64,000 nucleotides of DNA, taken from IMG/VR virus record IMGVR_UViG_3300036792_000096, positions 1 through 64,000 of that record. The stretch is one strand, 5' to 3'. The notes below the pieces were generated by a model. The model had not been told where the DNA came from, did no database searches, and saw only the letters and a program-made list of their open reading frames with translations. A program made the translations under genes and the position numbers. Below are positions 339 through 47,850 of the stretch, piece by piece (the stretch's first letter is position 1; the number at the start of each line of letters is the position of its first letter). Source of the DNA: a virus.

Positions 339-536
339 GTGACCTCCCCGCCCCCGCCCCGCTCCCAAGTCCGCATCGCCGGCCACCGAGGCACGGTCAC
401 CTTCCTCGGGATGCAGAGCGCGACCGTCGCGCACCTGTGGTCTGCCACCGGCCACCCCGACGGCAACCGCTTCGTCCCCCTCGCTGATCTGGTCCCCGCT
501 GCCCCGTCTCATAAGCGCGTGGGTGTGGCGCCGTGA
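339..536 (+). CDS. Small hypothetical protein, 65 aa
   Basis: GTG start preceded by GAGAGGG. The stop overlaps the GTG of the methyltransferase (GTGA, 4 bp), so the two are probably translationally coupled. The middle (VRIAGHRGTVTFLG) has a short beta-strand pattern like KOW/SH3-type small barrels. First gene of the rightward operon after the repeat array. Function unknown; the coding call rests mainly on the overlap and RBS. Confidence 0.6.
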   Translation: MTSPPPPRSQVRIAGHRGTVTFLGMQSATVAHLWSATGHPDGNRFVPLADLVPAAPSHKRVGVAP

Positions 537-3202
537 CCCGCCCCACGTTCGTCAGCGTCTTCGCCGGCATCGGAGGTTTTGACCGCGGGTTGGAGTTGGC
601 GGGTTGGTCGTGTGTAGCGCAGATTGAGAAGAACCCATTCCGGCGCAGGGTGCTGGCGCGCCACTGGCCCGACGTGAGGAGGTACGAGGATGTCTGCACC
701 GTCCGAGGAGCCGATAGCGTTCGACTGGCAGAGCGGAGGGGACGCGAGGGGTCTCAAGCCGTCAGAGCGAACTTCCGCTCTGACGGCGAACCAGAATCCA
801 GCGGTCTACGTGCCCGAGACGGCGGACACGCTGAGGAGCCACGGGAGGCCGGGGAGCAACTCGGCGGGGAACTTGAACGTGTCGATCTCCTCTGCGGCGG
901 GTTCCCCTGCGTTGCTGCTGGAACCTATGTGCTTGCGTGGGACGGCTATCGGCCCATCGAATCTCTGGCTATTGGAGATCGAGTGCTCACCCACCTCGGC
1001 CGGTGGCGACGGGTTACCGCGGTCATGTCCCGCGAGGGCGCTGCTCTCAGGCGAATCAAGGCTGGAGGTGTTGCTCCCCTTCTCACCACAGACGAACATC
1101 CCTTCTACGCCCGGGAACAGGGGCGACGGTGGAACAACGGCAGGCGGGCCTACGATCGAACCTTCTCCGAGCCCCAGTGGATCGCAGCGGGAAACCTCGG
1201 TCGGGACCACCGTCTCGCTCAGGTTCTCCCCGACATCGGAGGCGATGCCCGCCTGCCCGATCTGTGGTGGCTTGTGGGGCGCTACCTCGCGGATGGGTGG
1301 CGAGTCAGGAGACGCTTCACTGGCAAAGGCAACCCTATCCAGGGGGAGCCTCAAGGACGAGTTGTCATCTGTTGCGCCCACGATGAAGCCGAATTGCTTG
1401 CCAAGCGAATTGAGCGGGCTGGCTACCATGCCACTCCGAGCAGAGAGCGTACCGTCTTCAAGTTCCACATCGTTGACAGCGACTTCTACCGATTCCTTGA
1501 GCAGTTCGGGACTGGAGCTGGTGGCAAGTGCATCCCAGGATGGGTGCTTGGACTTGACCAAGAGCGTGCCTCTGCCTTGCTTGAAGGCTGGCTCTCAGGA
1601 GATGGATGGACCCGAGAAGATGGGGTGCGGGACGGGGCAACTATCAGCAAGTCGCTGGCTCTCGGTATGGCTTTGCTTGCCCAGCGTGCTTACGGAATGG
1701 TGGCAGGTGTCTACCCCACCGAACGCCCTGCTCACTGCAGTATTGAGGGCCGCCGAGTCAGACAACAGCGATCATGGAACGTTCGAATCCCTCCGAGTAA
1801 CCGTTCGGCCTTTGTTGAAGGACGATACGGCTGGAAGCAGGTCAGATCCTCCGAGCCTGCTGGCGTGGGCACCGTCTACAACATATCGGTGGAGGAAGAC
1901 GAGTCCTACGTCGCTGACGGTGCGATCGTCCATAACTGCCAAGACATCAGTGCGGCCAACAGCGGGGGTGCAGGGCTCGCTGGAGCTCGGAGCGGACTCT
2001 TCTTCGAGTTCGCCCGGCTGGCTGGAGAGCTACGCCCGACTTGGCTTCTCGTGGAGAACGTGGATAACCTCCTCGCCAAGCACAGCGGGGAGGACTTTGC
2101 AGTCGTCCTTCGCACGCTCGGAGCGCTCGGGTATTTCCTGGAGTGGCGAGTGCTGGACAGCCGCTATTTCGGCGTTCCCCAGCGGCGCAACAGAGTGTTC
2201 CTTGTCGGACATCTTGGAGGCCCACCCCCCTTCCCGGTTCTCTTTGAGCCCGAAGGCGTGCAGGGGCATCCTGCGGCGGGCCGAGAGGCGGGGGCGGAGG
2301 TTGCCGGAACGCTTGGCGGTGGCTCTGGAGGCCGTGGCTGGTGCGACGACCTAGACCGGGCCGGGGATGAAAGCCCCGGCCCGGTGGAAGACGTGGCGTT
2401 CGCCCTGCGGTCCAGCCAGTCAGGATCCCAGGGTGGGGCTCAGGGGCACAACACGACGTATGTAGCGACGGCCGAGCCAGAGGTATCACGCTCGCTGTTG
2501 GGTGGAGGCAACGACAGGCACGACGTAGGTCTGGAGATCCTCAGCGTGCCTGTCGTTGCCTCCACCCTCTCCACCTCGGCTGGAACCAACGGCCATTACG
2601 GGGGCAGGCACCAGGAGGACGACAGTAGCCTTATGGCCTCCACGATGGGCGGTGACGGCGTCGCGCACGCCGTCACCGCCGCGAAGTCCTACCGGCTGGA
2701 CGGCGAGTCGGAGACCTTCGTGGCGGCTTATGGAATCCAGTCGAATGCGTGGCGACCCGGGAAGGCTAAGACTCCGTCTGCCGATGCAGAGGGGCGAGTA
2801 CGTCTCCGCGACCCGGGGTTGGGGATTGACCCAGAACTGGCGGGCACGCTCCAAGGCGGTCCTATCGGCGTAGCGGCGTTTGATCTGGCCCAGATCACGA
2901 GCAACGTGAACCGCAATCGAGTGGAACCGGGTTTGCCCATGCCACCCCTGAATGGATCAGGCCAAGCCGGTGTCACCGGCTTGGCCTCAGTGCGGCGCCT
3001 GACGCCCCTTGAGCGAGAGCGACTCCAGGGATTCCCCGATGGCTGGAGTTGTCTCTGCGGCTGCGAGCCCTACTCCACGCACGCCTGCAAGTGCAAGGAC
3101 GGCCCGAGGGATCAGGCAACCGGAGACGCTGTGACGGTCCCCGTGGTCGCTTGGATCGGACGACGCCTATTGGCAGCGTACGAGGCTGAGAACGCCTCGT
3201 GA
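533..3202 (+). CDS. DNA (cytosine-5-)-methyltransferase with in-frame intein
   Basis: 889-residue precursor of a Dcm-type C5 cytosine methyltransferase. Motif I FAGIGGFDRGLELAGW is at residues 10-25; motif IV GGFP-C-QDIS is split by an intein (residues 126-468); motif VI LLVENVDN, motif VIII GVPQRRNRVFLVG, motif IX RRLTPLERERLQGFPDGW and motif X AVTVPVVAWIG follow in standard order. After splicing the enzyme would be about 546 aa. The catalytic Cys is Cys469 of the precursor, which is also the +1 extein nucleophile needed for splicing. The target-recognition region (nt 2220-2990) is long, Gly/Ser-rich and contains four perfect inverted repeats. It should methylate phage or plasmid DNA against host restriction. 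GTG start overlaps the previous gene. Very confident for family; target sequence unknown. Confidence 0.95.
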   Translation: MTRPTFVSVFAGIGGFDRGLELAGWSCVAQIEKNPFRRRVLARHWPDVRRYEDVCTVRGADSVRLAERRGREGSQAVRANFRSDGEPESSGLRARDGGHAEEPREAGEQLGGELERVDLLCGGFPCVAAGTYVLAWDGYRPIESLAIGDRVLTHLGRWRRVTAVMSREGAALRRIKAGGVAPLLTTDEHPFYAREQGRRWNNGRRAYDRTFSEPQWIAAGNLGRDHRLAQVLPDIGGDARLPDLWWLVGRYLADGWRVRRRFTGKGNPIQGEPQGRVVICCAHDEAELLAKRIERAGYHATPSRERTVFKFHIVDSDFYRFLEQFGTGAGGKCIPGWVLGLDQERASALLEGWLSGDGWTREDGVRDGATISKSLALGMALLAQRAYGMVAGVYPTERPAHCSIEGRRVRQQRSWNVRIPPSNRSAFVEGRYGWKQVRSSEPAGVGTVYNISVEEDESYVADGAIVHNCQDISAANSGGAGLAGARSGLFFEFARLAGELRPTWLLVENVDNLLAKHSGEDFAVVLRTLGALGYFLEWRVLDSRYFGVPQRRNRVFLVGHLGGPPPFPVLFEPEGVQGHPAAGREAGAEVAGTLGGGSGGRGWCDDLDRAGDESPGPVEDVAFALRSSQSGSQGGAQGHNTTYVATAEPEVSRSLLGGGNDRHDVGLEILSVPVVASTLSTSAGTNGHYGGRHQEDDSSLMASTMGGDGVAHAVTAAKSYRLDGESETFVAAYGIQSNAWRPGKAKTPSADAEGRVRLRDPGLGIDPELAGTLQGGPIGVAAFDLAQITSNVNRNRVEPGLPMPPLNGSGQAGVTGLASVRRLTPLERERLQGFPDGWSCLCGCEPYSTHACKCKDGPRDQATGDAVTVPVVAWIGRRLLAAYEAENAS
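908..1936 (+). other. Intein with LAGLIDADG homing endonuclease, in the C5 methyltransferase
   Basis: Coding for 343 residues (precursor 126-468). It begins with Cys (CVAAGTYVLAWDG, block A), has block B with TTDEHPF, two LAGLIDADG-type motifs (LVGRYLADGW near precursor residue 247 and LLEGWLSGDGW near 349), block F VYNISVEEDESYVADG, and ends in VHN followed by Cys. All splice-junction residues expected of a class 1 intein (Cys1, block B Thr-x-x-His, terminal His-Asn, +1 Cys) are present. Both aspartates/glycines of the endonuclease motifs appear intact, so it may still home. Insertion is at the exact catalytic P-C motif. Confidence 0.95.
2355..2385. repeat. Perfect inverted repeat, 12-bp arms, in C5 methyltransferase
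   Basis: ACCGGGCCGGGG at 2355-2366 and its exact reverse complement at 2374-2385, 7-base loop. In the target-recognition region of the C5 methyltransferase gene; reading frame remains open. Confidence 0.85.
2500..2567. repeat. Perfect inverted repeat, 23-bp arms, in C5 methyltransferase
   Basis: Arms at 2500-2522 and 2545-2567 are exact reverse complements over 23 bp, separated by 22 bases. The arms include GGTGGAGGCAACGACAGG on the left. Far longer than expected by chance inside a coding region. Confidence 0.9.
2648..2680. repeat. Perfect inverted repeat, 14-bp arms, in C5 methyltransferase
   Basis: GGCGGTGACGGCGT at 2648-2661 and its exact complement at 2667-2680, 5-base loop. Third of four hairpins in the recognition region. 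Confidence 0.85.
2959..2987. repeat. Perfect inverted repeat, 14-bp arms, in C5 methyltransferase
   Basis: AGGCCAAGCCGGTG at 2959-2972 and its exact complement at 2974-2987 with a single-base centre. It lies immediately before motif IX. Confidence 0.85.
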
Positions 3203-15223: not shown

Positions 15224-15702
15224 GCACCGAGCAGCGGTACATCCGCTGTACTCCCTTCACCGCCGTCAACCGGCTCCAGCCCCATATCGGCAAGGTGTGG
15301 GGGTGGGACCGCTGGCCTCTGCCCATGACGGTGTTCCAACTCTCGGCCTTCGTGGGGACCGCGGTGGGCCTGCTCCTCGGCTGGCATGCGTGGGGACGCT
15401 TCGGCATGCTCAACTTCCCCATCTACGCGGGAGCCGTGGCGGGGTCTAAGTACGCTACCCGCCGGATTCAGGTAGGTGGCCGGGCCATCTGGGCAGCGGC
15501 TCTCGGGCTGGCAGGTTCCTACACCGGGAAGCCTCGCATGGACGGCCGCAAGTTCAAGGCCCGCCAACTGACTCGCTACAAGGAACGGAGGATGCTGCTG
15601 GTGCCCGACCCGCAGTGGCGCCGGTACCCGCTCGCCTTTGTCACGACCCACGGGCACCGCCCCCGAGTCCGGTTCTGCTACTGGGTAAAGGCGAAGCCGT
15701 GA
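15217..15702 (+). CDS. TcpE/PrgI-like conjugal transfer membrane protein, about 161 aa
   Basis: Start GTG 15217 or TTG 15220, both overlapping the upstream stop. Two adjacent hydrophobic segments (MTVFQLSAFVGTAVGLLLGW and LNFPIYAGAVAGSKYA), then a basic C-terminal domain (FKARQLTRYKERR, PRVRFCYWVKAK). This architecture and the location directly before a VirB4-like ATPase match the small TcpE/PrgI-type proteins of Gram-positive T4SS. Confidence 0.65.
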   Translation: MLSTEQRYIRCTPFTAVNRLQPHIGKVWGWDRWPLPMTVFQLSAFVGTAVGLLLGWHAWGRFGMLNFPIYAGAVAGSKYATRRIQVGGRAIWAAALGLAGSYTGKPRMDGRKFKARQLTRYKERRMLLVPDPQWRRYPLAFVTTHGHRPRVRFCYWVKAKP

Positions 15703-18296
15703 GGCCGCTCAGGCAGTACCTCCCCGAATACAAGGCCAAGGGCGCCGTCCCAGCCCGCGCGGCCGTTGGAAACCTCGTGTGGACGCACGGCGGAAGCGTG
15801 CTGGGGATCTGGCGGGTTGAGCCTGTCGCCTACAAGTACCTCTCTCACGCTGGCAAGCTTGCCTATCACGAGTCGGTCCGTTCGACCCTGCTGGCGCTCC
15901 CTCCTGAGTCCACGATCCTGTCCGTCTGCCCTCCCCTGGACCATGTGGGGACGGCCATGGCGGTCCTGAAGGGCCACGAGAACCGGGCATCGTGGCAGCA
16001 GGTAGCAGCCGAGTCCGTGGACCTCCTGCACGAGTGGGACCCGTTCGAGCGGTGGTTCTACGTCGTCGCCCACCTCGGCTCCACGGGCGGGTTCGTGGGG
16101 GAGATCAAAGAGCAGATGACGTCGGTTCTGCGCCGGCCCTTCGGGCGCCCCATGGAGCACGACGTACGGGCCAAGGCCCGCCAGGCGCAGAAGCTGGAGG
16201 CGGACCTCCGCCGGTCGGGTCGCACCTTCATCCCCGTGGGTGCCGGCGAAGCGCGGTGGATCTATGCCCGGGCACTGCGCCGTGGCATCCGGGACGTGCC
16301 CCTACTTGGGGCTGACCGGCGGGAGATCCAGACGCCGGGCTTTGCCAGCGTCGGCGGCGTAGTGACTCTCGAGGGCGGCGACAGGAAGGACTACGGGCGT
16401 GGGCTGCGCCGACCCTATCTGCGGGTGGCCGAGCCTTCGGGAGACGGTCCCGAGGCGGTCGGGTACCAGTGCCATATCGCTCTCGCCGACATGCCCGAGG
16501 GAACCTTCCCGGATGACTACGAGATTCTCTACGCCCTTGACGACTTCGGGTTCCCCGTGGACTGGGCCATCCAGATGCATCGCACGACCAACGCCCTGTC
16601 CCGCCAGCACCTTGCCAAGAAGTCCAAGGCGCTTGTGCAGGAGTTGGGGGGCGAGGGCCGCGCCAAGGAGATCGAGGACACGGGCCAAGTCCCGGCGGAG
16701 CTTCAGGAGGCATGGGACGCCCTACTTGCTCATCGGGAGCGCCTTATCGCCCTGAAGTCCGAGGGCAATGTCCGAGCCACCATCGCTCTCACCGTGTGGG
16801 GCCGGGACCTCCGCACCGCACAAGCTCGAGCAGACGCGGTGGTGGAAGCGCTGGCGCCGAACGAGTGGGGACTGGCTCGGCCCCCAGGCGGTCAGTCGGG
16901 CCTGCTGGAGTTGGGCATGCCCGGCGGCCGTACCGCCGTCGTGGCTTACAACTACGAACAGACCCTTTTGCCGACTGACATCGCCGCTCTCGGCCTCTTC
17001 GCAGGCTCGGACATCGGCGACGACACGGGGTTTCTCGTGGGGGCCCGCATGGACTGCAAGACGAACCGGCCTGTCCTGTGGGAGCCCGCGGGCGGGTTGC
17101 ACATGGGCCAGTCGTCGTCAGCAGTCTTCATCGGAGTCCCCGGCTCGGGTAAGAGCCTGAGTGCCAAGCGGTCGATGCACGAGGGTGTTCTCGCCCGAGG
17201 CGGGCGGGGAATCTCCATTGACCGGACTCCGCAGGGAGAGTGGGTGCGCTTCGCCGACGCCATGAGGGAGGAGGGCTTCTCTACCTCCGTCGTCACAACT
17301 GACGAGGCGGCGCGCAGTTCCTTCGATCCCTTCCGAGTGTTCGCCGATGCGAAGGACCAGAAAAAGTACGCCCTCGGCCTCTACCTGCTGGTAACCCAGA
17401 CTCCCTCGTCCAACCTCTCGGGAATCTGCCTCAGCGACGCGGTAGAGGAGGTATCCCAGCGTGACGCCTCGGAGCGGTCATCCCCGGCCGTGCTGGGTGT
17501 CCTCGAGCAGATGTTTGCGGAGGGCCGGCATGGGGCGGAGGAGGCGTTCTACAAGTTGCGCGCCTTCGTCCGAGGCCCGTATGGGCGCATGGCCTTCGAT
17601 CCCGACTCAACCCCGGCCAACCTCACGGCTGACTTCGTGGTGTTCCACGTCCCGGATCTTGAGCTCCCCGACCGGGAGACCATGCGAGACGGGCAACTCG
17701 CATCGCAACTCCTCCCCGAGCAACTGGGGGCGCTGGGGGTCTTCTACCTCATCGCCGCCGCCGGCCGGGCAATCATCCTTGCCGACCGGGACCGGTTCTC
17801 CGTCCTGTGCGTCGATGAGGCGTGGGTGCTCACGTCGACCGTGCAGGGCGTGGACCTGCTGGAAACGACGGAGCGGGACGGGCGCAAGCGGTACGCCGCC
17901 GTGTGGCTCATCACGCAGCACCCAGACGACGTGTCGGACCCGAAGCTCTCTGCCTTCCTCATCACGCGCTTCGTGTACGCGCAGGGACAGGGAGCGGGCC
18001 CCGGAGCTTTGGCGTTCCTCAACCTCGAGCCAACCCCCGCACTGGTGGAGAAGGTGCAGGACGGGCTGTCCCGGAACGACAGGCTCGACGCCGACCCCGA
18101 GCCGGCTCGGTGCATGATGCTCGACGCCCGTCGCCGGGTGGGCGAGATCGTGTGGAACCCGCCGTCCGAACGCCTCATGCGGGCCTACGAGACCAACCAA
18201 CGGCGGCTGAGTGCCTACGGTCCCGCACCTGTGGACGCCGGAACCAATGGGCACGCTGAGCCCGCCGAACTCGTGGACTACGAGGTAACCCGGTGA
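15699..18296 (+). CDS. VirB4/TraC-like T4SS ATPase, 865 aa
   Basis: GTG start overlaps the upstream stop. N-terminal half (1-400) is the VirB4-type domain with RQAQKLEADLRRSG. Walker A FIGVPGSGKSLSAKR lies near residue 480 and Walker B SVLCVDEAWVL near 704, followed by the sensor-like LITQHPDDVSD. Length is normal for VirB4/TcpF/ConE ATPases that power assembly and substrate transfer at the inner face of the membrane. Next to TcpE/PrgI-like and VirB6-like genes, the order of Gram-positive conjugation systems. Confidence 0.92.
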   Translation: MRPLRQYLPEYKAKGAVPARAAVGNLVWTHGGSVLGIWRVEPVAYKYLSHAGKLAYHESVRSTLLALPPESTILSVCPPLDHVGTAMAVLKGHENRASWQQVAAESVDLLHEWDPFERWFYVVAHLGSTGGFVGEIKEQMTSVLRRPFGRPMEHDVRAKARQAQKLEADLRRSGRTFIPVGAGEARWIYARALRRGIRDVPLLGADRREIQTPGFASVGGVVTLEGGDRKDYGRGLRRPYLRVAEPSGDGPEAVGYQCHIALADMPEGTFPDDYEILYALDDFGFPVDWAIQMHRTTNALSRQHLAKKSKALVQELGGEGRAKEIEDTGQVPAELQEAWDALLAHRERLIALKSEGNVRATIALTVWGRDLRTAQARADAVVEALAPNEWGLARPPGGQSGLLELGMPGGRTAVVAYNYEQTLLPTDIAALGLFAGSDIGDDTGFLVGARMDCKTNRPVLWEPAGGLHMGQSSSAVFIGVPGSGKSLSAKRSMHEGVLARGGRGISIDRTPQGEWVRFADAMREEGFSTSVVTTDEAARSSFDPFRVFADAKDQKKYALGLYLLVTQTPSSNLSGICLSDAVEEVSQRDASERSSPAVLGVLEQMFAEGRHGAEEAFYKLRAFVRGPYGRMAFDPDSTPANLTADFVVFHVPDLELPDRETMRDGQLASQLLPEQLGALGVFYLIAAAGRAIILADRDRFSVLCVDEAWVLTSTVQGVDLLETTERDGRKRYAAVWLITQHPDDVSDPKLSAFLITRFVYAQGQGAGPGALAFLNLEPTPALVEKVQDGLSRNDRLDADPEPARCMMLDARRRVGEIVWNPPSERLMRAYETNQRRLSAYGPAPVDAGTNGHAEPAELVDYEVTR

Positions 18297-20299
18297 GGCG
18301 CCTCGCGGCAGTGCTTATCACCGCGGGAGGCTTGGCCCTCATCCCCGCTGCTGCCAGCGCGCAGACCGTTCCCACTCCCACGGTAACGACCACGCCGACG
18401 CCCGGGCCGACGGGCGTTCCGCAGATCCCGGCAAAGAAGGTGTGCAACGGGGTTCCCCAGCCGGTTCTGGGGTTCATTTACGATCCCAAGTACCTCGTGC
18501 CAGGTGCCAACGGTGGGTTCTCGCTCGAGGATGAGATGCACGCCTGCTCGCTCGAGGGCCAGCAGCAGGTTCACGACCAAGCCAAGGGCTTCATGAATGC
18601 AATGGTTCCCGACAACACCGGCTCGGCCATCCCCCTCAGTGCCTACGACATCGGCTTCGACGGCTCGATAACGCAGGGTCCGGCGCTCGTTATCGGGATC
18701 GCGACGGCTATCCTCTTCGCTGTAGCGGTGTGGATCGTGGCCGGCGGACTGACGCTGGTGACGTGGGCGGTGTCCTTCCCCTTCGTTTCAATCGGTTCCG
18801 CCGTGGCCGACGATGTCTCGAAGGCGATGCTGACGAAGGTGATCGGGCCTATCGGGCTCGGACATCTGGCACTCGGGATCTGCGGTGTGGCGGTCGCCTT
18901 TCATCTGTTGCGTGAGCGAGCGAACCGGGCGGTCATCGAAGTGGCGACGTGCATGGTGGCACTCGTGTTCGCCTCTTTCCTGCTGACGAATCCCGGCGCC
19001 CTTCTCCGCTCGGGCTTCCGGGTTGAGCAGCAACTAATGGCAACGCTGCTCACCATGGGCCAACCCCCGGCTCAGACCAGCGTCACGGTCCAGAGCGGTA
19101 CTGCCTCGACCGATGCCGCTTTGGCTCCTCTCAAGAAATCCGTGCTGTCTGCCGACGTGCAGAACCCCTACGACCTCATCGACTGGGGAGCGGTACTCAC
19201 GGGGCGCTGTGCCGCCATCCGAGACGAGGCGCTTGCACTTGGGCCGTGGGGTGACGCCTCGGCTCCCCGGGACACCATGGCGAAGCTGCCCGAGTGCCAA
19301 GCCGCCGCAACGTGGAACGGGAACTCTTCGTTGTCCAAGCTGGCCGGTGGCGGGTTCTCTATCTTCAACTCCCTCTCCACCTTCGCCCTGCTGGCTGTGA
19401 TGGCTCTCGCCCTGCTGGTGAGCGAGTTGGGGGCCTGCTTCCTCATGGCCCTCTCACCTCTGGCCATCGTCGCCGCCTGTGTCCCCAAGGTCCGCTCTGG
19501 CTTCGCCCGCTGGGCTGAGGGCATACTGAGGGTGATCCTGGTCACGATCGTGGCTGCGTTCTTCCTCTCCCTGTGGTCACTGTTCATGGTGGCGCTGCTG
19601 GACAAACTTCCCCCGGGCACTCCTCTGCTGCTGCGGTTCTTCGTCCAAGCCTGTGTCACCACCATGACCATCATCGCCTTTGTCTCGGCCCTCCGTAGGC
19701 TCCCCCGGGTGGCTCACAACGTGGTCAAGAGCATGTCGAAGGACGAGGGCTACCTCTCCCCGGCCAAGTCACACGGTGGCACGCTCGGCCTCGGCCTCGG
19801 CTCGCTGGGCATGGCCGAGGCGCTGGGCTACCGGGACAAGTTGTCCAGCCTCACGCCCAACCGGAACCGGCGCAAGTTGGTAGGGGCGATCAAGGGCCTC
19901 AAGGACGGACCAAAGGAACTCGACGCTGGAGAGGAATTTGATCCCGCAGGTGTGGGGTTCCCGCCCTGGACTCCGGGCACCGACATGGAGTTGAGCGGCG
20001 GGCCCTACGGAGACAACAAGTGGCGTTCGGATAGGGTTACTGCCGAACGGGTGCCACCGCGTACGGATAACTGGACGACTCCCGAAGTCCTTCGAGAGGC
20101 TACCTTGCGTCTCAGCAACCCCCTCGCACGGCCCGTGATCCGGCTGCCCGAGAGCAACCCCCGAAAGGTCGTGGTGCCCCTCAGTGTGGCTAATGCCGCG
20201 CCTTCCCGTAGAGCGCTCCCGCCCGCCGGTTCCACCTCGGACGCACCTGTCCGGGCATGGGAAACCCGTCGGCGCGACTACGAGATCCCGGAGGAGTAA
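18293..20299 (+). CDS. VirB6/TrbL-like membrane channel protein, 668 aa
   Basis: N-terminal signal peptide-like segment (LAAVLITAGGLALIPAAASAQ), a Thr/Pro-rich extracellular linker, then several TM helices: ALVIGIATAILFAVAVWIVAGG, LALGICGVAVAFHLL, VALVFASFLLT, FALLAVMALALLVSELGACF, ILVTIVAAFFLSLWSLFMVALL and TTMTIIAFVSAL. The C-terminal 160 residues are soluble and Arg-rich. Topology fits VirB6/TcpH/TrbL proteins that line the translocation pore. Coupled to VirB4 by a GTGA overlap. Confidence 0.85.
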   Translation: MRRLAAVLITAGGLALIPAAASAQTVPTPTVTTTPTPGPTGVPQIPAKKVCNGVPQPVLGFIYDPKYLVPGANGGFSLEDEMHACSLEGQQQVHDQAKGFMNAMVPDNTGSAIPLSAYDIGFDGSITQGPALVIGIATAILFAVAVWIVAGGLTLVTWAVSFPFVSIGSAVADDVSKAMLTKVIGPIGLGHLALGICGVAVAFHLLRERANRAVIEVATCMVALVFASFLLTNPGALLRSGFRVEQQLMATLLTMGQPPAQTSVTVQSGTASTDAALAPLKKSVLSADVQNPYDLIDWGAVLTGRCAAIRDEALALGPWGDASAPRDTMAKLPECQAAATWNGNSSLSKLAGGGFSIFNSLSTFALLAVMALALLVSELGACFLMALSPLAIVAACVPKVRSGFARWAEGILRVILVTIVAAFFLSLWSLFMVALLDKLPPGTPLLLRFFVQACVTTMTIIAFVSALRRLPRVAHNVVKSMSKDEGYLSPAKSHGGTLGLGLGSLGMAEALGYRDKLSSLTPNRNRRKLVGAIKGLKDGPKELDAGEEFDPAGVGFPPWTPGTDMELSGGPYGDNKWRSDRVTAERVPPRTDNWTTPEVLREATLRLSNPLARPVIRLPESNPRKVVVPLSVANAAPSRRALPPAGSTSDAPVRAWETRRRDYEIPEE

Positions 20300-21232: not shown

Positions 21233-21850
21233 GTGACCCAGCGCTACCGCACCATCGTCGCCGACCCGCCGTGGCCTATCAAAGACACGGGGGCTTGTTC
21301 TAGCCCCCGTGTCGGAGAGCGTAAGGGCCGGTGGGATTCAGGCAAAGGGACCGTAGGTAAGAGCAGCCGCGTGCCCTATTCAGTGATGAGCCTGACCGAG
21401 ATTGCTGAGTTGCCCGTGGCTGACCTCGCCGAGCCGGACGCTCATCTCTACCTGTGGACCTTTGGACCGTTTATTCCGAAGGCGTATGAGTTGGTGAAGG
21501 GGTGGGGGTTTAAACCGTCTGCTCTGCTGACTTGGTGCAAACCCCCGATGGGACTCGGGTTCGGAGGCGCCTATGTCCCCACAACGGAGCATGTTCTATT
21601 CGCACGCCGGGGACGACTGGCTGCCCTGCGCCGCTGGCACTCCACGTGGTTCGAGTGGCCGCGGCCGTACCTAACTCAAGGCCCCGCGCACTCAGCCAAA
21701 CCCGAAGCCTTCCTAGACCTAGTCGAAACGGTCTCCCCCGGACCGTACCTGGAACTTTTCGCGAGGAGGAACCGCCTCGGCTGGTCAACTTGGGGCAACG
21801 AGTGTCTTGAGCACGTGGAGATGCCGACAACTGGATGTGGCGACAAGTAG
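21233..21850 (+). CDS. MT-A70 family adenine-N6 methyltransferase, 205 aa
   Basis: GTG start right after the previous stop. DPPW at residues 11-14 is the catalytic motif of MT-A70; LYLWTFGPFIPKAYELVKGWGFK, TTEHVLFARRG, HSAKPEAFLDLVETVSPGPYLELFARR and GWSTWGNE complete the family pattern. A perfect 12-bp inverted repeat sits just after DPPW. Bacterial/phage MT-A70 proteins methylate DNA adenine. Its location inside the transfer operon suggests methylating DNA for arrival in a new host. Confidence 0.92.
   Translation: MTQRYRTIVADPPWPIKDTGACSSPRVGERKGRWDSGKGTVGKSSRVPYSVMSLTEIAELPVADLAEPDAHLYLWTFGPFIPKAYELVKGWGFKPSALLTWCKPPMGLGFGGAYVPTTEHVLFARRGRLAALRRWHSTWFEWPRPYLTQGPAHSAKPEAFLDLVETVSPGPYLELFARRNRLGWSTWGNECLEHVEMPTTGCGDK
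21284..21313. repeat. Perfect inverted repeat, 12-bp arms, in MT-A70 gene
   Basis: GACACGGGGGCT at 21284-21295 and its exact complement at 21302-21313, 6-base loop, starting about 12 bases after the DPPW codons. Same type as the hairpins in the C5 and ParB-fused methyltransferase genes. Confidence 0.85.
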
Positions 21851-21889: not shown

Positions 21890-24286
21890 ATGGAACAGTC
21901 AGAGCAGGTAGATAGGGAAATCCCTGATGCGGCCGTTGCGGACTGCTCCCCCCCTGTCCCCTCCTCCGTCGGGTCCTTCGGTTCGCAAGCACCCCCCTAC
22001 ACGGGGGGTGAGAGTACACCGCTCCAGACCGCTGAGCCCAAGAGGAAGACCGTCGAGCTCGCCCCCTCAAGATCCTTCAACCCGAACCCCGAAGAGGTAC
22101 TCCGTTGGTCAATCGCTCTCGCAAGATCCACAAGAAGGTTTCACCCGAAGGACTTCATCCGGATCCACCTCCGTGCAGACAATGGATACCTCTCCTACCT
22201 GCTCTCCGCTCCCTCAGAAGTTCTCCCGCGGCTCCTCACCTTCCTACCCGCGGGGCTGACCGTCCGCGAGGCCGCTGTTCCTCCATCGCCAGCCGCTCTT
22301 GCAGTCTCGCGAGCAGTGGTTTCGCTACCGCGAAACCCTCGAGTGGTGCCCGCGGATCCCGACGTTCTGGGGGACTTCGCGCGTGCGCTCGCGGAGGCAC
22401 GCGAAGGTGAACTAGCGGAGGTCATCCTCGACCTCGTCGCGGCAGACAAGCGCCCTCGCGAGCGCCAGTTTTCATCGCGCGAGTGGGATCCCGCGAAGCT
22501 CCTCACCGCGGCGCGAACCGCTGCCGCGCGGGACTTCCTCGCGAGGCCCCAGCCGACACGTTCGAACCCACGCGAGGAAGCCGAGAATCACCCTCCTACG
22601 GAGGAGATTCTCTTCCGCGTCGCGGTCCACGCACACGCCTTTTCCCCCGACGCCCAGCGCGCTCGCGACCTTGCTCTTGGGCTCGCGCAGCCCTTCCACG
22701 CGTGGGGACCCGGAGGCTCAGTCAAGGTGTCTACACGCTCTCCCGCCGCGGGGTGGCTCCACGAGGGACACCGCCCTCGTGGAGCACGGTCTCAGGTGGT
22801 TGCTCAGACGGCGCTGGCCTGTCTGCTGCTGCCCCCAACGGAGTCCTGCACGGCCATGAACGTAAGACGCTCTGGGGCCGCTGCGCCGCCTCCGCGGGGG
22901 CTACTGCCGCTGGGTCCCGGTACGCGCCCCTTGGGTCACGTCGCGGGCTACTCCGGGCCCGTCGGGATCCGCTGGGATGAGTTCTTCTTCGGCGGACTCT
23001 CCGGGCAGACGCGGTGGGGCAAGAGCTACTTTGAGATCGGGACCTTCCTCTCTTGGGTGCTCGAGGCTCCCTACGGGCTCGGACTGGGCGGGTGCTACGT
23101 TGACCCCACACGCGAGGCGCTGGGAACGCTCGAGCCGTTCATGACCTCCATCGCCCCCCGTTGCCTTGTCGTGGACCTGGGGCGGAATTGGGATGACCTG
23201 TACCTGCCCTGCTGGAACCTGCTGGATGCTCGCGGCACAAAGGACCAGGAGGCCAACGAGCGGGTCGGCGCCATGACGTCGGGGTTCCTCGCTGCAACGA
23301 AATGGAAGCCGGACTTCGCTTCCCGGGCAACGGCCATCATCACCAACACGGCCAACAGTCTGATCGCCTTCGACCGTGCGCTGCCGGCCGACGCCCCCAC
23401 GCCCACAATCTTTCAGATCCACACACTCATCGAAAACGAGGAGTGGCGCAAGAAGATCCTCCCCTGTCTCCCCCAGCACCTTCGTCAGTGGTGGGAGGAT
23501 TCCTTCCCCCGACTTCCGAAGGACGCCGTGCTGACCGTGACCAACCTGATCTCACGGCTCCGCAACGATGTCCCCACCGCAGCCTTCCTCGGGGGACGCA
23601 ACACGCTGAACCTGCGCGAGGCCATGGACCGCCGCCAGGTGGTGCTGTTCTCCAACGCCCGGAAGGGGGACGGACGTGACGCCCTGCCGACATCGCTGTT
23701 CGTGCGTGGTCTGCTCATGGCCGGCCACTCCCGCCAGGACACGCCCGAGGTCCGGCGCAGGGAGGAGTGCCCCCGCTTCCACATCGTCTACGACGAGGCC
23801 CCCACCTACAACGGCCCCGACCTCGCCTCCGGCATGCAGGAGCTTGGGAAGTACGGGATCGTGTCGGACGTGCTCTCGCAGGGACCTTCCAAGCTCAAGG
23901 TCGGCGGGACGTGGGACGCTCTTGCCACCAACAGCTCCACGCTCACCACGACCTCCGTGGGCCACGACGACGCGGTCATGATCGCCAAGGAGTGGCAGGG
24001 CGCCTCAGCGTCCGACATCATGGACACGGAGCGTTACACCTTCCTAACCTCCGTCGTCCACGAGGGACGGCACAGCCCCGCCTTTCACTTCCGAGCCATC
24101 GACCCCCACGACCTCTACCCGTACGAGGCCGGCGTGCTCGAACGCTCAATCGCCAAGGATCGTCGGTATCGGCTCGCAAGCGAGACCGTCGCCGATCTGG
24201 AGACGCTGGACGAACGGCTGGTGAAAGCGTGGATGCGGGGGCAGAACTCGGGCCCCCGGCCGATAGCGGTGGACGTGGAGTCATGA
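21890..24286 (+). CDS. VirD4/HerA-like conjugative coupling ATPase, 798 aa
   Basis: ATG start after a 39-base gap. Pro/Ser-rich N-terminus (about 65 residues), an Arg/Ala-rich region (100-350), then Walker A SGQTRWGKSYFE near residue 370 and Walker B HIVYDEAPTYNG near 632; the DLGRNWDDLYLPCWNLLD region fits VirD4/TraG/HerA ATPases. No N-terminal TM helix was seen, unlike classic VirD4, so it may be a soluble coupling protein or rely on a partner. nt 22260-22720 has an unusual density of CGCGAG/CTCGCG codon pairs, unlike neighbours. Confidence 0.85.
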   Translation: MEQSEQVDREIPDAAVADCSPPVPSSVGSFGSQAPPYTGGESTPLQTAEPKRKTVELAPSRSFNPNPEEVLRWSIALARSTRRFHPKDFIRIHLRADNGYLSYLLSAPSEVLPRLLTFLPAGLTVREAAVPPSPAALAVSRAVVSLPRNPRVVPADPDVLGDFARALAEAREGELAEVILDLVAADKRPRERQFSSREWDPAKLLTAARTAAARDFLARPQPTRSNPREEAENHPPTEEILFRVAVHAHAFSPDAQRARDLALGLAQPFHAWGPGGSVKVSTRSPAAGWLHEGHRPRGARSQVVAQTALACLLLPPTESCTAMNVRRSGAAAPPPRGLLPLGPGTRPLGHVAGYSGPVGIRWDEFFFGGLSGQTRWGKSYFEIGTFLSWVLEAPYGLGLGGCYVDPTREALGTLEPFMTSIAPRCLVVDLGRNWDDLYLPCWNLLDARGTKDQEANERVGAMTSGFLAATKWKPDFASRATAIITNTANSLIAFDRALPADAPTPTIFQIHTLIENEEWRKKILPCLPQHLRQWWEDSFPRLPKDAVLTVTNLISRLRNDVPTAAFLGGRNTLNLREAMDRRQVVLFSNARKGDGRDALPTSLFVRGLLMAGHSRQDTPEVRRREECPRFHIVYDEAPTYNGPDLASGMQELGKYGIVSDVLSQGPSKLKVGGTWDALATNSSTLTTTSVGHDDAVMIAKEWQGASASDIMDTERYTFLTSVVHEGRHSPAFHFRAIDPHDLYPYEAGVLERSIAKDRRYRLASETVADLETLDERLVKAWMRGQNSGPRPIAVDVES

Positions 24287-25002: not shown

Positions 25003-25905
25003 ATGCAGCCCCTGCCCCTCCCTCTCGCCGAGCACGCGCTTCTGGAGGTCATCGGCTGGCACCGCTACCTCACCCGCCGCCAGTGCTGGCTCTACGAACG
25101 ACCTCAGGACGCCAACAGCCGCCCCACCTACGCCCTGCTCGGGCGCCTCGCCAAGCGGGGGCTGGTGGGCTCAGGCCAGGTCGATGGCCGGGGCGTGGCG
25201 GTCTACTTCCTCACCCCCGCCGGCATCAAGGCACTCCCGCCAGCCCTCCGCAGGGACTACCAGCCCTCAGCCGAGCAAGCCGGCTTCCGCTACAGGCACA
25301 CGTGGCAGGTCAACGAGGCGGGCCTCGCCTTCGTCCAGGCCGCCCGGGAGCGGGGTGACGAGTGCGGCCCACTTGCCCTCGAGCACGAACGCCGTCTCCG
25401 GGACACGGGAGACAGCGCCTCTCTCCTCATCGCCGACGGCATCCTCCAGTACGCCCTACAGGACTCGAAGACCTACGACCCGCGCTGGGCCATCCTCGAG
25501 GTGGACCGCCGCACGGCCCCCGGCCGCATCTGTGACCGCCTCCGGGCCTACGCCACCATCAAGCGCAAGAAGGTCTTGTGGTCCAAGGTGCTCCCCGACG
25601 GCTGGCCCCCGGTCCTGTTCGTCATCTCCGCCGACCCGAGCTCAGGCCCCCGAGTGGGAGAGAAGCACTGGGCAGGCGACCCCAGGGCATCCTCGGCTCG
25701 TACCCGCCGGCTGACGGCCTACGTCGCAGACCGGATGCGCGACGAATCCCTGCTGCGGGGGCTGGAGGTGTTCTTCGCCCCCCTGCCAGCACTGTTGGCC
25801 GACGGCCCCTTCGCCCCCATCTGGCACCGCCCGGGCCACGCCGAGCCGCTGGACTGGCTGGGGCGCCCGGTCATGTCCGCCGTGAGCGAAGGCGGGGCAG
25901 CGTGA
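25003..25905 (+). CDS. Replication-relaxation family protein, 300 aa
   Basis: ATG immediately after the methyltransferase stop. N-terminal winged helix: LLEVIGWHRYLTRRQCWLY ... TYALLGRLAKRGLV ... VYFLTPAGIKALP. C-terminal half (HERRLRDTGDSASLLIADGI ... AILEVDRRTAP) resembles a PD-(D/E)xK-like core (E-V-D). This is the actinobacterial family annotated as involved in plasmid replication-relaxation, often near conjugation genes. Last gene of the transfer operon. Role in DNA processing is family-based inference. Confidence 0.85.
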   Translation: MQPLPLPLAEHALLEVIGWHRYLTRRQCWLYERPQDANSRPTYALLGRLAKRGLVGSGQVDGRGVAVYFLTPAGIKALPPALRRDYQPSAEQAGFRYRHTWQVNEAGLAFVQAARERGDECGPLALEHERRLRDTGDSASLLIADGILQYALQDSKTYDPRWAILEVDRRTAPGRICDRLRAYATIKRKKVLWSKVLPDGWPPVLFVISADPSSGPRVGEKHWAGDPRASSARTRRLTAYVADRMRDESLLRGLEVFFAPLPALLADGPFAPIWHRPGHAEPLDWLGRPVMSAVSEGGAA

Positions 25906-37943: not shown

Positions 37944-38182
37944 GGGGTGTCTCCGTACAACGCCTGAACGAGATCCTTCTCCGGGATCTCCAGTGCCTGA
38001 AGGAACTCCCACAGGGGAATCTGCACGCTTTCGATGTCTACAATGTGGTCATAGTGTCCCGAGATACTCAGGAGCCGAGATCGCTTGGTGTAGTGGATCC
38101 GCACCCCTGATTCAGCGCCGCCGGTCAGGACGGTCTGCTTCTCGGACTTGCACCATCCAAGACTGCTGGGTTCGGTTCTCAC
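37940..38182 (-). CDS. Hypothetical protein, 80 aa
   Basis: GTG at 38182 preceded by GGAGG at proper spacing; TTG at 38188 is the less likely alternative. IHYTKRSRLLSISGHYDHIVDIESVQIPLWEFLQALEIPEKDLVQALYG. Unrecognised. Confidence 0.65.
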   Translation of the reverse strand: MRTEPSSLGWCKSEKQTVLTGGAESGVRIHYTKRSRLLSISGHYDHIVDIESVQIPLWEFLQALEIPEKDLVQALYGDTP

Positions 38183-38364
38183 TGCCAAACCTCCTCTCCG
38201 GTTCTAACGAGCTGACCCGCCTCATGTCGGGCGAGGATGACGCGAAGCTCGGCAGCGATGCTCTCAAGAGTCTCTGCTGCGTCGCGGATCTCCTCAGCCG
38301 TGGGGCTATTGGCAAGCGTCACCGAGATCTCCTGCACGCTACGGCTGATACCGTTGTCAGCCAT
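38179..38364 (-). CDS. First gene of second leftward operon, 61 aa
   Basis: ATG at 38364. Helical: SVQEISVTLANSPTAEEIRDAAETLESIAAELRVILARHE, probably a dimeric helical hairpin. Follows the promoter at 38400-38428. Unknown function. Confidence 0.7.
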   Translation of the reverse strand: MADNGISRSVQEISVTLANSPTAEEIRDAAETLESIAAELRVILARHEAGQLVRTGEEVWQ

Positions 38365-38399
38365 CCGACTCTCCTCTCTGTGTGCTCCTGACAAGACAC

Positions 38400-38428
38400 A
38401 GTGTACACTTCTGCGGACGCTCTGGCAA
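38400..38428 (-). promoter_or_regulatory. Promoter of second leftward operon
   Basis: Minus strand -35 TTGCCA (38423-38428), 17-bp spacer, -10 TACACT (38400-38405). Drives the six-gene operon ending in the 3D-domain gene. Confidence 0.8.
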
Positions 38429-38446
38429 TAGCCTAGGACACAATTC

Positions 38447-38460
38447 CTGTCCGTGGACAG
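38447..38460. promoter_or_regulatory. Perfect inverted repeat CTGTCC-GT-GGACAG
   Basis: 14-bp palindrome between divergent transcripts. Its right half contains TGGACA, which with TACGAT at 38478-38483 (18-bp spacer) could be the rightward promoter, so it may be an operator. TSS would fall close to ATG 38495. Confidence 0.6.
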
Positions 38461-38494
38461 AACGTCGCTGGAAGTCGTACGATATGCGCCACTC

Positions 38495-38701
38495 ATGACC
38501 CGCTTGCTTGGCGTCCCCGAGACCTGCCCCCACTGCCGCCAACCGACGCATGGGATCCTGTTCTGCGCCTGTGGGCGCCTCACGACAGAACGGGCCAAAC
38601 CCGACCGTCAGGGCTACCGGGAGCGTAAGGCTGGCGGTAGGAGCCGGGATTCCAGCCCCAAGGCCGTAGCCCGACGTCGGTCCAAGTTGGCGGGGGCGTA
38701 G
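38495..38701 (+). CDS. Zn-finger protein, 68 aa
   Basis: ATG at 38495 is a few bases after the expected start site; a GTG at 38453 would lie within the candidate -35, so it is less likely. CPHCRQPTHGILFCACGRLTTERAKPDR forms a two-knuckle zinc site, followed by a very basic tail (RERKAGGRSRDSSPKAVARRR). Likely binds nucleic acid. Confidence 0.6.
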   Translation: MTRLLGVPETCPHCRQPTHGILFCACGRLTTERAKPDRQGYRERKAGGRSRDSSPKAVARRRSKLAGA

Positions 38702-39010
38702 ATGGCGCTGCGCAGCATCGTGGACGAGTTCGTATGCGGGCCGAGCGGCATTGATCCCGGCTGCCCCTTCTGCGACGGCACCGGGACCGTCTGCGAGGAT
38801 CACCCCGAGCGTCCATGGCACGGCACCGCTGGGGAGGATGTCGGTTGTCCGTGTCACCAAGCCGGGATGCCCTGCAAGGACGGCCGTAAGCTGCTCGGCT
38901 CGCTTGACGGGCTGGCGCGGGAAGGCAGTCGGACGTATGTTCCGTACCCAGACTCCCCGACTGTTCCGGTAGGGGGCTACAACGACGCCAATCTCAGTGG
39001 TAAGCCATGA
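38702..39010 (+). CDS. Cys-rich Zn protein, 102 aa
   Basis: ATG immediately after the previous stop. CPFCDGTGTVCEDHPERPWHG ... CPCHQAGMPCKDG is the common actinophage signature of a small DnaJ-like zinc protein. Unknown function, frequently found beside terminase or methyltransferase genes in phages. Confidence 0.75.
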   Translation: MALRSIVDEFVCGPSGIDPGCPFCDGTGTVCEDHPERPWHGTAGEDVGCPCHQAGMPCKDGRKLLGSLDGLAREGSRTYVPYPDSPTVPVGGYNDANLSGKP

Positions 39011-39351
39011 GCGAGGTGCTCGCAGAGCCGACAAACCTCCAATGCGTCTGGTCCACCCCCGACTGCCCCATCCCGCCCGGGACCGTCCTGACCGCTCTCC
39101 CACCGCTCGAGGGCTCGCTCAGGGACGCCTATGACCTCGTGGTCGCCCTTGTGTGGGCCTATCCCCACCGTGGCGCGTCGCACCGAGAGATTGCCGTGGG
39201 GCTGGGGTGCTCCTCGAGCGCCGCTCACGGTTGGGTTGCCGAGTTGCGGAGGCTGGGATACCTCACCGCCGGTCACGCCGTAGGCCGGTCGGGGAACAGG
39301 GCTCCGAACACCATCCGGCCGGCGGTAGTCCCGCACCGAGCCAGTGCCTAA
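39007..39351 (+). CDS. Winged-helix DNA-binding protein, 114 aa
   Basis: ATG overlap start. YDLVVALVWAYPHRGASHREIAVGLGCSSSAAHGWVAELRRLGYL is a helix-turn-helix followed by a wing. Precedes the ParB-methyltransferase fusion by 5 bp. Could regulate the late operon or help the terminase. Confidence 0.7.
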   Translation: MSEVLAEPTNLQCVWSTPDCPIPPGTVLTALPPLEGSLRDAYDLVVALVWAYPHRGASHREIAVGLGCSSSAAHGWVAELRRLGYLTAGHAVGRSGNRAPNTIRPAVVPHRASA

Positions 39352-39356
39352 CTGAC

Positions 39357-41033
39357 GTGCCCCCCGAACCGTGGCGTAACCGGATCGTCGGCGAGGGCGA
39401 GGAAGCGCCTGACCAGCTTCTAGCCAACCCGTTCAACTTCCGCATCCACCCCAAGGCACAGCAGGACGGTGTAAGCGGGTCTCTGAACGATCTAGGCTGG
39501 ATACAGCGGATTATCGTCAACCGGGCCACCGGCCATGTCATTGACGGTCACGCCCGGGTAGAACTCGCAATCAGCCGTGGTGAGCCGTCGGTGCCTGTCG
39601 TCTACGTAGACGTGACGCCGGAAGAGGAGCGCAAGGCCCTAGCCGTGTTCGACGCCCTCGGTGCCTTGGCTGCCATCGACGGCCCGAAGCTGGGTGAGTT
39701 GCTCGCCTCCATCTCCACCGAAGACCCGGATCTGGAGCGGATGCTGACGGATCTGGCTGGGGCCAATGGTGTGACCTTCGGAATGGGAGGCCGAGAACCG
39801 GAGGCGGACAACCTAGAGCAAGAGGTAGCCCGCGCAACCCTAGCGGAGCGGTTTCTCATCCCGCCCTTCTCCGTCCTTGACGCCCGACAGGGGTACTGGC
39901 AGGAACGTAAGCGAGCGTGGCTCGCCCTTGGTATCCGGTCTGAGTTGGGGCGTGGGGAGACCCTGACGTATGTGGGCCGGGAGGACGAGACAGGAGAATC
40001 CGACGCGACGTGTCGTCCAGTGTCTCGTCCTCCCGGCCCACAGCGAAACGGCCAAGTGAGTCCAGGCGGGTCGCCGGGCGCGGCGACCCGCCTCAATCAG
40101 AACGGCAAGACGGAGCGGGGCGATGGCGCTGGACACCCGCTTACGTACAAGGGGCAGGAGTCGCTCCATGTGAACGAACCCGGATCGCGTTCAGCGACTC
40201 CTGCCCCTTCCCGTCGCATGACCTACGCTACGGGCTCTGCGGAGGACTTCACATCTCAGCGCATCCTTGAGCAGGTCCCTGCTCAAGGATCAGGAACGTC
40301 CATCTTCGATCCCGTGCTGTGCGAGGTGGTCTATCGCTGGTTCTGCCCGCCCGGGGGGCGTGTGCTGGACCCCTTCGCCGGGGGTAGCGTCCGTGGTGTT
40401 GTGGCGTCTCTTCTTGGGCGCTCGTACACGGGCATCGACCTATCCGAGGCACAGGTAGTGGCCAACAGAGGGCAAGGGGAGGCTCTCTGTTCACGTTCGC
40501 TAGATAGTGCAGTGGCACCTATGCCGCGGTGGTTCATGGGTGATAGCAGCAACATTGCCGCGGACTGGCCTCCGTCCGATGCCATGTTCGATCTCGTGTT
40601 CTCCTGCCCGCCGTACTTTGACCTTGAGGTTTACACGGATTCGCCTGCTGACCTCTCACAGGCACCCGACTATGAGGCGTTCGTGGATGCGCTGGGCACC
40701 ATCCTCACCGCCTCTGCTGGCCGACTCGCCGATGATCGGTTCGTGGTGTTGGTCATGGGAGAGGCCCGCAACGGGCGGGGCGACCTGTACGGGCTTGTGC
40801 CGGGCACCGTCAAGGCCGCCGGGCGAGCGGGGCTGACGTACTACAACGAGGCGATTCTTGTGACGATGGTCGGGTCGCTGCCGCTCCGGGTCGGGCGGGC
40901 CTTCCCCGTCTCTCGGAAGCTTGGGCGTACTCACCAAACCGTTCTCGTGTTCGTTAAGGGGGACGCTACCCGGGCCGCGGCTGCATGCGGTCATGTAGAG
41001 GTGGGGGATGTACCCGAGAGCGTCAACGCATGA
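39357..41033 (+). CDS. ParB-domain/DNA methyltransferase fusion, 558 aa
   Basis: GTG start after the previous stop. N-terminal ParB/Srx-like domain (FRIHPKAQQDGVSGSLNDLGWIQ, VNRATGHVIDGHARVELA, VYVDVTPEEERKALAVFDAL; residues 25-130). A long linker (about 170-310) contains five perfect inverted repeats at DNA level. C-terminal methyltransferase: FDPVLCEVVYRWFCPPGGRVLDPFAGGSVRGVVASLLGRSYTGIDLS (motif I) and FDLVFSCPPYFDLEVY (motif IV, CPPY). I-before-IV is the alpha/gamma order. Common in actinophages next to terminase; may modify genome before packaging. Confidence 0.92.
   Translation: MPPEPWRNRIVGEGEEAPDQLLANPFNFRIHPKAQQDGVSGSLNDLGWIQRIIVNRATGHVIDGHARVELAISRGEPSVPVVYVDVTPEEERKALAVFDALGALAAIDGPKLGELLASISTEDPDLERMLTDLAGANGVTFGMGGREPEADNLEQEVARATLAERFLIPPFSVLDARQGYWQERKRAWLALGIRSELGRGETLTYVGREDETGESDATCRPVSRPPGPQRNGQVSPGGSPGAATRLNQNGKTERGDGAGHPLTYKGQESLHVNEPGSRSATPAPSRRMTYATGSAEDFTSQRILEQVPAQGSGTSIFDPVLCEVVYRWFCPPGGRVLDPFAGGSVRGVVASLLGRSYTGIDLSEAQVVANRGQGEALCSRSLDSAVAPMPRWFMGDSSNIAADWPPSDAMFDLVFSCPPYFDLEVYTDSPADLSQAPDYEAFVDALGTILTASAGRLADDRFVVLVMGEARNGRGDLYGLVPGTVKAAGRAGLTYYNEAILVTMVGSLPLRVGRAFPVSRKLGRTHQTVLVFVKGDATRAAAACGHVEVGDVPESVNA
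39911..39925. repeat. Short inverted repeat GCGAGC-GTG-GCTCGC
   Basis: 6-bp arms; first of a series in the linker of the ParB-methyltransferase. Alone it could be chance. Confidence 0.5.
39971..40042. repeat. Perfect inverted repeat, 22-bp arms, in ParB-methyltransferase
   Basis: Arms 39971-39992 and 40021-40042 are exact reverse complements (left arm includes GGGCCGGGAGGACGAGAC), 28-base loop. Frame remains open across it. Confidence 0.92.
40064..40093. repeat. Perfect inverted repeat, 13-bp arms, in ParB-methyltransferase
   Basis: AGGCGGGTCGCCG at 40064-40076 and its complement at 40081-40093, 4-base loop. Confidence 0.88.
40149..40209. repeat. Perfect inverted repeat, 17-bp arms, in ParB-methyltransferase
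   Basis: AAGGGGCAGGAGTCGCT at 40149-40165 and its complement at 40193-40209, 27-base spacing. A smaller TGAACG/CGTTCA pair is nested inside. Confidence 0.9.
40263..40290. repeat. Perfect inverted repeat, 12-bp arms, in ParB-methyltransferase
   Basis: ATCCTTGAGCAG at 40263-40274 and its complement at 40279-40290, 4-base loop. Directly before the methyltransferase domain begins. Confidence 0.88.
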
Positions 41034-42995: not shown

Positions 42996-43260
42996 GACTA
43001 GGATGGAACCTCGCGAAGTCGTATGCTTGGCGATACTTTTCGCGCTCTCGGGTGAGGGAGGAGCTTCAAGGTTGCCGGAACACCCTCGTCCCCTTGACGT
43101 TGCAATCGCGGCCAGAGCCGCGGTGAATGCGCGCCGTAGGCGTTCGCACAGTGTAAAATGGATGGTAGGTAGGAGCCCCGCGTCGTCTGACCGACCGGGG
43201 CCATGGACGAAGCCTCTCAGGAAGGCACCGTCGTGTTACACACTACAGCAGGGTTGCCGC
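42996..43260. other. 265-bp gap after terminase, weak promoter and repeat-motif copy
   Basis: No gene is convincing here, though one frame stays open from 43003. AACCTCGCGAAG at 43008 shares nine bases with the repeat array at the left edge. TAAAAT near 43154 is a possible -10 without a good -35. May hold a promoter for head genes or a packaging or partition site. Confidence 0.35.
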
Positions 43261-43916: not shown

Positions 43917-43925
43917 CGCCGTCTG

Positions 43926-47537: not shown

Positions 47538-47550
47538 AGGGAGAACGCCC

Positions 47551-47838: not shown

Positions 47839-47850
47839 AAGGAGAGCCAC

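Follow-up and report, generated by a model that had tools for sequence, protein, structure and literature searches.

The virus record IMGVR_UViG_3300036792_000096 from IMG/VR carries perfect inverted repeats that are concentrated in three of its DNA methyltransferase genes: a C5-cytosine methyltransferase, a ParB-type enzyme (ParB-N with an N6/N4 DNA methyltransferase) and an MT-A70 family methyltransferase. In the whole record (90,657 bp), 10 of the 14 exact inverted repeats with an arm of at least 12 bp and a loop of up to 60 bp fall in these genes, which make up 5.5% of its length (binomial 2e-10, the repeats being treated as independent). The first 64,000 nucleotides, here called the window, were scanned for arms of at least 11 bp with the same loop limit, giving 14 repeats, of which 12 have arms of at least 12 bp. 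The hairpins are probably products of template switching that accumulate in the specificity or linker segments of phage orphan methyltransferases.

Inverted repeats of the C5 methyltransferase gene

The original prediction had reported four perfect inverted repeats in the recognition region of the C5 gene, and all four proved exact to the base (Table 1). It had also placed them only between motifs VIII and IX, which is wrong, as there is a fifth repeat upstream of motif IV and there are more in the two other methyltransferases. The motif numbers, like the module names and the terms master and slave arm used below, are working labels.

The C5 open reading frame (ORF) has five repeats with an arm of at least 12 bp, against a mean of 0.016 in 1000 synonymous-codon shuffles, which preserve the protein and its codon usage; no shuffle had more than one repeat, and the longest arm was 13 bp. 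When the variable part was shuffled alone, 0.012 repeats were expected against the four observed. Chance is ruled out by this comparison, in agreement with the earlier expectation that a 23-bp exact arm in coding DNA would not arise by chance; randomised codon models giving as many repeats had been named as the outcome that would speak against the earlier claim, and the models that were run gave nothing of the kind. The arms of the different hairpins in the window are unrelated in sequence to each other, as had been noted before.

The fifth repeat lies within an out-of-frame module that sits between motif I and motif IV and reads in the frame of an ORF at 690-2354, while the C5 ORF stays open across it. 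The module was recognised from the peptide AFDWQSGGD, found again in 36 IMG/VR stretches, and it looks like a misplaced copy of a C5 recognition module. Because a probable intein splits the C5 enzyme at its catalytic cysteine, the enzyme should be active only after splicing. It is plausible that the hairpins could generate new specificity loops, as had been suggested.

Inverted repeats of the other methyltransferases

In the ParB-type enzyme, four repeats lie within 320 bp of the linker, whereas 0.043 were expected from synonymous-codon shuffles. A structure model built on a 26-row alignment has good confidence in the parts that flank the linker but not in the linker itself, where the predicted local distance difference test (pLDDT) score is about 30-46 for most of residues 203-316. 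The linker is modelled as disordered, which fits a tolerance of template-switch changes. The repeat of the MT-A70 gene is located within an insert directly after DPPW, and five phage homologues do not have the insert.

The four repeats of the record outside these three genes include one in the ORF at 21890-24283 (phrog_5156) and one in a glycosyltransferase gene (56246-56279, arm 12, loop 10); the remaining two are at record positions 84630 and 90551.

Table 1. Methyltransferase genes of the window with their modules and exact inverted repeats (arm and loop lengths in bp)
Feature	Position	Strand	Basis or remark
C5-cytosine DNA methyltransferase ORF, 889 amino acids, intein-interrupted	533..3202	+	PF00145, E 9.3e-41 in three stretches; Hint_2 1e-6
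C5 variable-type module 'IAFDWQSGGDARGLKPSERTSALTANQNPAVYV...', out of the ORF's frame	690..862	+	3' border approximate
Exact inverted repeat, arm 12, loop 6	758..787	.	own scan; missed by the original prediction
Probable intein at the catalytic Cys (FP/C...HN/C)	908..1936	+	Hint_2 match at amino acids 125-183; borders read from sequence
Exact inverted repeat, arm 12, loop 7	2355..2385	.	own scan
Exact inverted repeat, arm 23, loop 22	2500..2567	.	own scan
Exact inverted repeat, arm 14, loop 5	2648..2680	.	own scan
Exact inverted repeat, arm 14, loop 1	2959..2987	.	own scan
MT-A70 family phage DNA methyltransferase	21233..21850	+	PF05063 4e-16; phrog_359 1e-41
Exact inverted repeat, arm 12, loop 6, in MT-A70 gene	21284..21313	.	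own scan
ParB-N + N6/N4 DNA methyltransferase ORF	39153..41033	+	PF01555 1.4e-7; homology begins near 39354
Variable linker of the ParB-type enzyme (ARQGYW to FDPVL)	39884..40320	+	residues 203-316 low pLDDT
Exact inverted repeat, arm 22, loop 28	39971..40042	.	own scan, ParB-type linker
Exact inverted repeat, arm 13, loop 4	40064..40093	.	own scan, ParB-type linker
Exact inverted repeat, arm 17, loop 27	40149..40209	.	own scan, ParB-type linker
Exact inverted repeat, arm 13, loop 2	40263..40290	.	own scan, ParB-type linker

Enrichment among relatives

Relatives of the ParB-type enzyme were collected from IMG/VR by similarity (53 loci) and by a degenerate ARQGYW pattern (at least 119 stretches), some of the search seeds being close relatives of the window protein; loci are given L numbers below. 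In 61 linkers (19.4 kb, near-identical contigs included), there are 32 exact repeats with an arm of at least 12 bp, or 1.65 per kb, against 87 in the remaining 1.81 Mb of the loci, or 0.048 per kb. A non-redundant set of 65 linkers of 156-1995 bp, including that of the window, contains 50 stems, compared with a mean of 0.1 in codon-order shuffles, and 20 of the 65 have at least one repeat with an arm of 12 bp or more.

The ARQGYW pattern was absent from bacterial genomes (0/13, 0/385 and 0/400, 798 in total, with three slightly different patterns) and gave four weak matches in plasmids. A search with the GQDLM motif, one of the linker modules, returned 127 contexts, and those with a name are mostly alphaproteobacterial. 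Hairpins are few in them, at 0.30 per kb against 0.07, so that not every gene with GQDLM is rich in hairpins.

To see whether the feature is a property of the whole phage, the C5 family was sought in the records of selected loci, 22 in all: 20 came from ARQGYW-pattern loci and two (L253 and L348) were reached via the GQDLM module. Only two of the 22 had a C5 gene. Protein searches with the C5 variable part gave no match in named phages, and neither did a DNA search of window positions 38000-48000 against named phages. One C5 module, VAGTLGGGSGNRG in L390 (12610-12646), is itself a palindrome with 13-bp arms, a hint that inverted copying gave rise to some of the C5 modules.

How the palindromes change

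The arms are nearly always perfect: 60 of 66 stems have no mismatch, and there are 8 mismatches in 925 pairs, under a score cut that favours perfect stems. The mismatches show no preference for G.U pairs (GT 2 and AC 1 of the 8; GT 3 and AC 9 with a looser cut).

Homologous modules show that the two arms change together. The GLLG module is present in 13 copies: nine have a stem paired at 12/12 positions, three at 11/12 and one at 9/12, and the paired copies use several different stem sequences. The stems of the DETSRK module include ACCAGCC/GGCTGGT, ACCTCCC/GGGAGGT, ACTAGCC/GGCTAGT and ACCAGCAG/CTGCTGGT, where the conserved arm takes silent changes (Ser AGC to TCC is one) and the partner arm follows with a change of amino acid. 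Homologous modules also range from quasi-palindrome to perfect palindrome among contigs that are about 83-94% identical in the methyltransferase domain.

Inversion of a spacer was observed between L167 and L185. Over 5,079 bp, these two differ only at two bases, which form the spacer of a hairpin and read TC in one and GA in the other; the inversion turns T-S-P-G into T-R-T-G. The GQDLM module, with 23 copies in the 65 linkers, has R-x-F ahead of the QDLM-type motif in 17 copies. Of the eight copies that overlap a hairpin, four are off-consensus (QTH, QRS, RSN and RNS), and each of them regains R-x-F when the hairpin is flipped (4/4). In the four hairpin copies that already read R-x-F, the flip breaks the consensus in two (L068 and L135) and gives R-K-F in L071; in L181, the module lies within a 31-nt loop and the flip garbles the motif behind it. 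The two remaining copies, with RTV and RTS, do not overlap a hairpin.

The pairing register in open linkers is codon-to-codon in 22 cases, of a second class in 19 and wobble-to-wobble in two. In the window, all five C5 repeats pair codon-to-codon and all four ParB-type repeats belong to the second class.

Linker modules, reading frames and simple repeats

The ParB-type linkers are mosaics of short modules in varying order, such as SPGGSP..GDGRGR, GLLGESEQARSHY, ARTFGQDLMRGEH and LTWVAGDR..DETSRKNLAAGR. In a six-frame search of 218 loci and the window, every match to these modules lay downstream of the ARQGYW anchor and no further than 2.5 kb from it. Modules occur in all three frames relative to the anchor, and the reading frame is broken in 27 of the 65 linkers.

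Simple repeats, counted as runs of eight or more G or C and tetranucleotide and other short tandem repeats, number 32 in 32.6 kb of linker against five in 512 kb of the rest of the loci, a density about 100 times higher. Such tracts are present in 18 of the 27 broken linkers and in none of the 38 open ones. Over 5,836 bp, L085 and L165 differ by a single G, which lies in a G run. In six loci (L078, L082, L093, L107, L136 and L152), the linker contains tetranucleotide repeats and G runs of 8-12, and which module can be read past the run depends on the frame. In many of the loci found with GQDLM, an ATG directly ahead of the module gives the methyltransferase part a new start. The tracts would switch the reading frame in the linkers of many phages; the window's own enzymes have open frames, and its linker is without a simple-repeat tract. 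Poly-C runs were also seen upstream of or near the starts of ParB/methyltransferase genes in L399 (1275-1340) and L400 (1390), records that are named Microcystis phage Mae-JY30 and Mycobacterium prophage prophiGD43A-5.

Proposed mechanism and alternative explanations

The hairpins would be produced by short-range inverted template switching during DNA replication or repair, in which the polymerase briefly copies the complementary or the nascent strand; replication is presumably the step concerned. Such a switch would write an exact reverse-complement of a nearby stretch, perfect a quasi-palindrome or invert a spacer. One arm would usually be a protein-conserved module and the other a slave copy that tracks it. 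The events would build up in the specificity and linker segments of phage orphan DNA methyltransferases because, as proposed here, these segments tolerate in-frame change or are favoured for it, and in the ParB-type family the linker would be diversified further by module shuffling and tract slippage. The switching rate may be locally high and ongoing, with DNA recognition and methylation specificity altered as a result, and selection may act on such changes for their value against host restriction.

Independent local inverted duplications had already been suggested for the C5 gene, and they are now well supported by the perfect arms and their joint change, and further by the quasi-palindromic relatives and the spacer inversion between two otherwise identical contigs. 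Several observations weigh on the other side. In 45 of the 65 ParB-type linkers, there is no hairpin with an arm of at least 12 bp, and the scan found no such repeat in two further N6/N4 methyltransferases of the same phage. Seven named isolate-phage homologues of the ParB-type enzyme have neither ARQGYW nor a repeat of 12 bp or more in the gene. The direct spacer flip comes from one contig pair, in two IMG assemblies that possibly share samples. C5 relatives as a hairpin-rich family are unsupported, with three repeats in 82.9 kb of 63 module regions versus 0.021 per kb elsewhere; as their module regions are not enriched, the C5 gene of the window is exceptional in its family.

Relaxed constraint alone is a serious rival, with a substantial if minority chance of being right. 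Here, template switching would take place at a low rate throughout the genome and disordered linkers would simply fail to purge its products, with neither hotspot nor benefit. The ParB-type linker is indeed predicted to be disordered, and yeast has the same events without an adaptive need in the cases described (PMC8604942); however, outside the linkers the inverted repeats are about 34 times rarer, with intergenic sequence counted in, and the tract repeats are rarer there by the factor of about 100 given above.

A further reading, with a minority chance of being right, is a dedicated contingency segment in phage orphan methyltransferases, in which palindromic cassettes would act as tiny reversible switches that continually rewrite recognition loops against host restriction. 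Spacer flips and arm recopying by template switching, together with G-tract slippage and cassette shuffling, might then give many methylation specificities in one phage population. Diversity would in that case be generated by a system that can do without reverse transcriptase and recombinase alike.

Mobile palindromic coding elements, similar to Rickettsia palindromic elements or PARCELs (palindromic amphipathic repeat coding elements), that insert in frame together with their hairpin are an unlikely source. Modules do recur with their palindromes in different orders and frames, the MT-A70 hairpin lies in an insert that its five homologues lack, and a C5 module is found out of frame upstream. 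Against this, the unrelated arms of the window hairpins and the confinement of the modules to the region downstream of the anchor do not suit a mobile family, and no recombinase, target duplication or defined border was found. Neither of the marks of such elements, a common consensus and copies in unrelated genes, was found, none of the module hits in the loci searched lying outside the linker.

The original prediction had also considered selected RNA stems, and RNA or single-strand DNA structures that serve translation pausing between domains or mRNA regulation, for example, now appear very unlikely. Each hairpin folds stably (z -3.6 to -8.9, as expected from perfect arms) and the arms co-change, but the stems show no tolerance of G.U, hairpin number, place and sequence vary between homologues, spacers flip and most homologues are without hairpins. 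Rfam gave no match for the window at E<=1, and for nine loci nothing that suits the linker. Known RNA families were rejected; a type II hammerhead ribozyme match in L137 (2433-2498, E 2.5e-6, minus strand) lies upstream of a ParB-type methyltransferase gene and is unrelated.

A sequencing or assembly artefact, such as fold-back chimeras of amplification, is scarcely credible: the hairpin-rich sequences are nearly all from metagenome contigs, but the 20 hairpin-bearing non-redundant linkers come from many separate metagenomes. The hairpins cluster in a single segment of a few genes, most of them keep the frame and bring no stop, and their stems are specific to lineages; a 24-bp palindrome is also shorter than the usual assembly k-mers.

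Template switching is known as a scattered type of mutation, and here many environmental phages apparently have it concentrated where change in the methyltransferase could pay most, beside two other signatures of hypermutation. If the linkers set specificity, phages would have a directly testable route to diverse DNA methylation that calls for neither a dedicated recombinase nor a reverse transcriptase. It would also offer, in sequences from nature, a way to tell template-switch rates from selection.

Genome context

Short palindromic intergenic repeats of the CTCGCGCACTGCGCGAGG type are present at both ends of the record, at 1-280, upstream of the C5 gene, and at record positions 90519-90618. 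The record has conjugation-like genes (AAA_10 and TrbL/VirB6, 15615-20296) and encodes a portal and a major head protein too. A replication-relaxation protein is encoded at 25003-25902.

Comparison with known systems

No earlier report of such palindromes in phage methyltransferases was found in the open-licence literature. Phasevarions have a methyltransferase whose frame is broken or restored through G tracts and tetranucleotide repeats. The present genes differ in belonging to phages and in having the tracts in the linker between ParB and methyltransferase, alongside shuffled modules and palindromes; repeat length would control the frame, as in phase-variable genes, in the relatives only and not in the linker of the window. 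Multispecific phage C5 methyltransferases have several recognition domains, in a modular variable segment between motifs VIII and IX. Compared with these, the modules of the window are short and palindromic, and their assignment is from sequence only.

Rickettsia palindromic elements are coding sequences with dyad symmetry that are shuffled and spread, as a family with one consensus. PARCELs are likewise dyad-symmetric coding sequences that are shuffled and horizontally spread, and they form families with one consensus (PMC2996958). The phage stems are unrelated within a gene, and no copy was found outside the linker. The fusion of a ParB-CTPase fold with an N6/N4 methyltransferase has been described in phages, with the same architecture as the second enzyme of the window; in contrast to the present data, a hypervariable linker is not described in the excerpts of that survey (PMC12704722).

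Arm homogenisation, spacer inversion and perfect arms are given as marks of inverted template switching in three studies (PMC8604942, PMC8794818, PMC6649704). The events reported in yeast are similar to those of the phages in their arms of about 10-16 bp, spacers of 2-5 bp and amino-acid replacements, and include exact spacer flips, GAA/TTC among them; they are scattered over 39 genes (PMC8604942), while the phage events are strongly concentrated in one gene segment. A close likeness is with mitochondrial genes of Nematomorpha, where perfect inverted repeats, with hardly any imperfect ones, lie in translated genes, are gained and lost between species and have a register bias against one phase, and where template switching was proposed (PMC6649704). 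Those palindromes reach 284 bp and are spread over respiratory genes (PMC6649704), whereas in the phages the arms are 11-23 bp long and concentrated in the variable segments of methyltransferases, and spacer inversion is seen directly.

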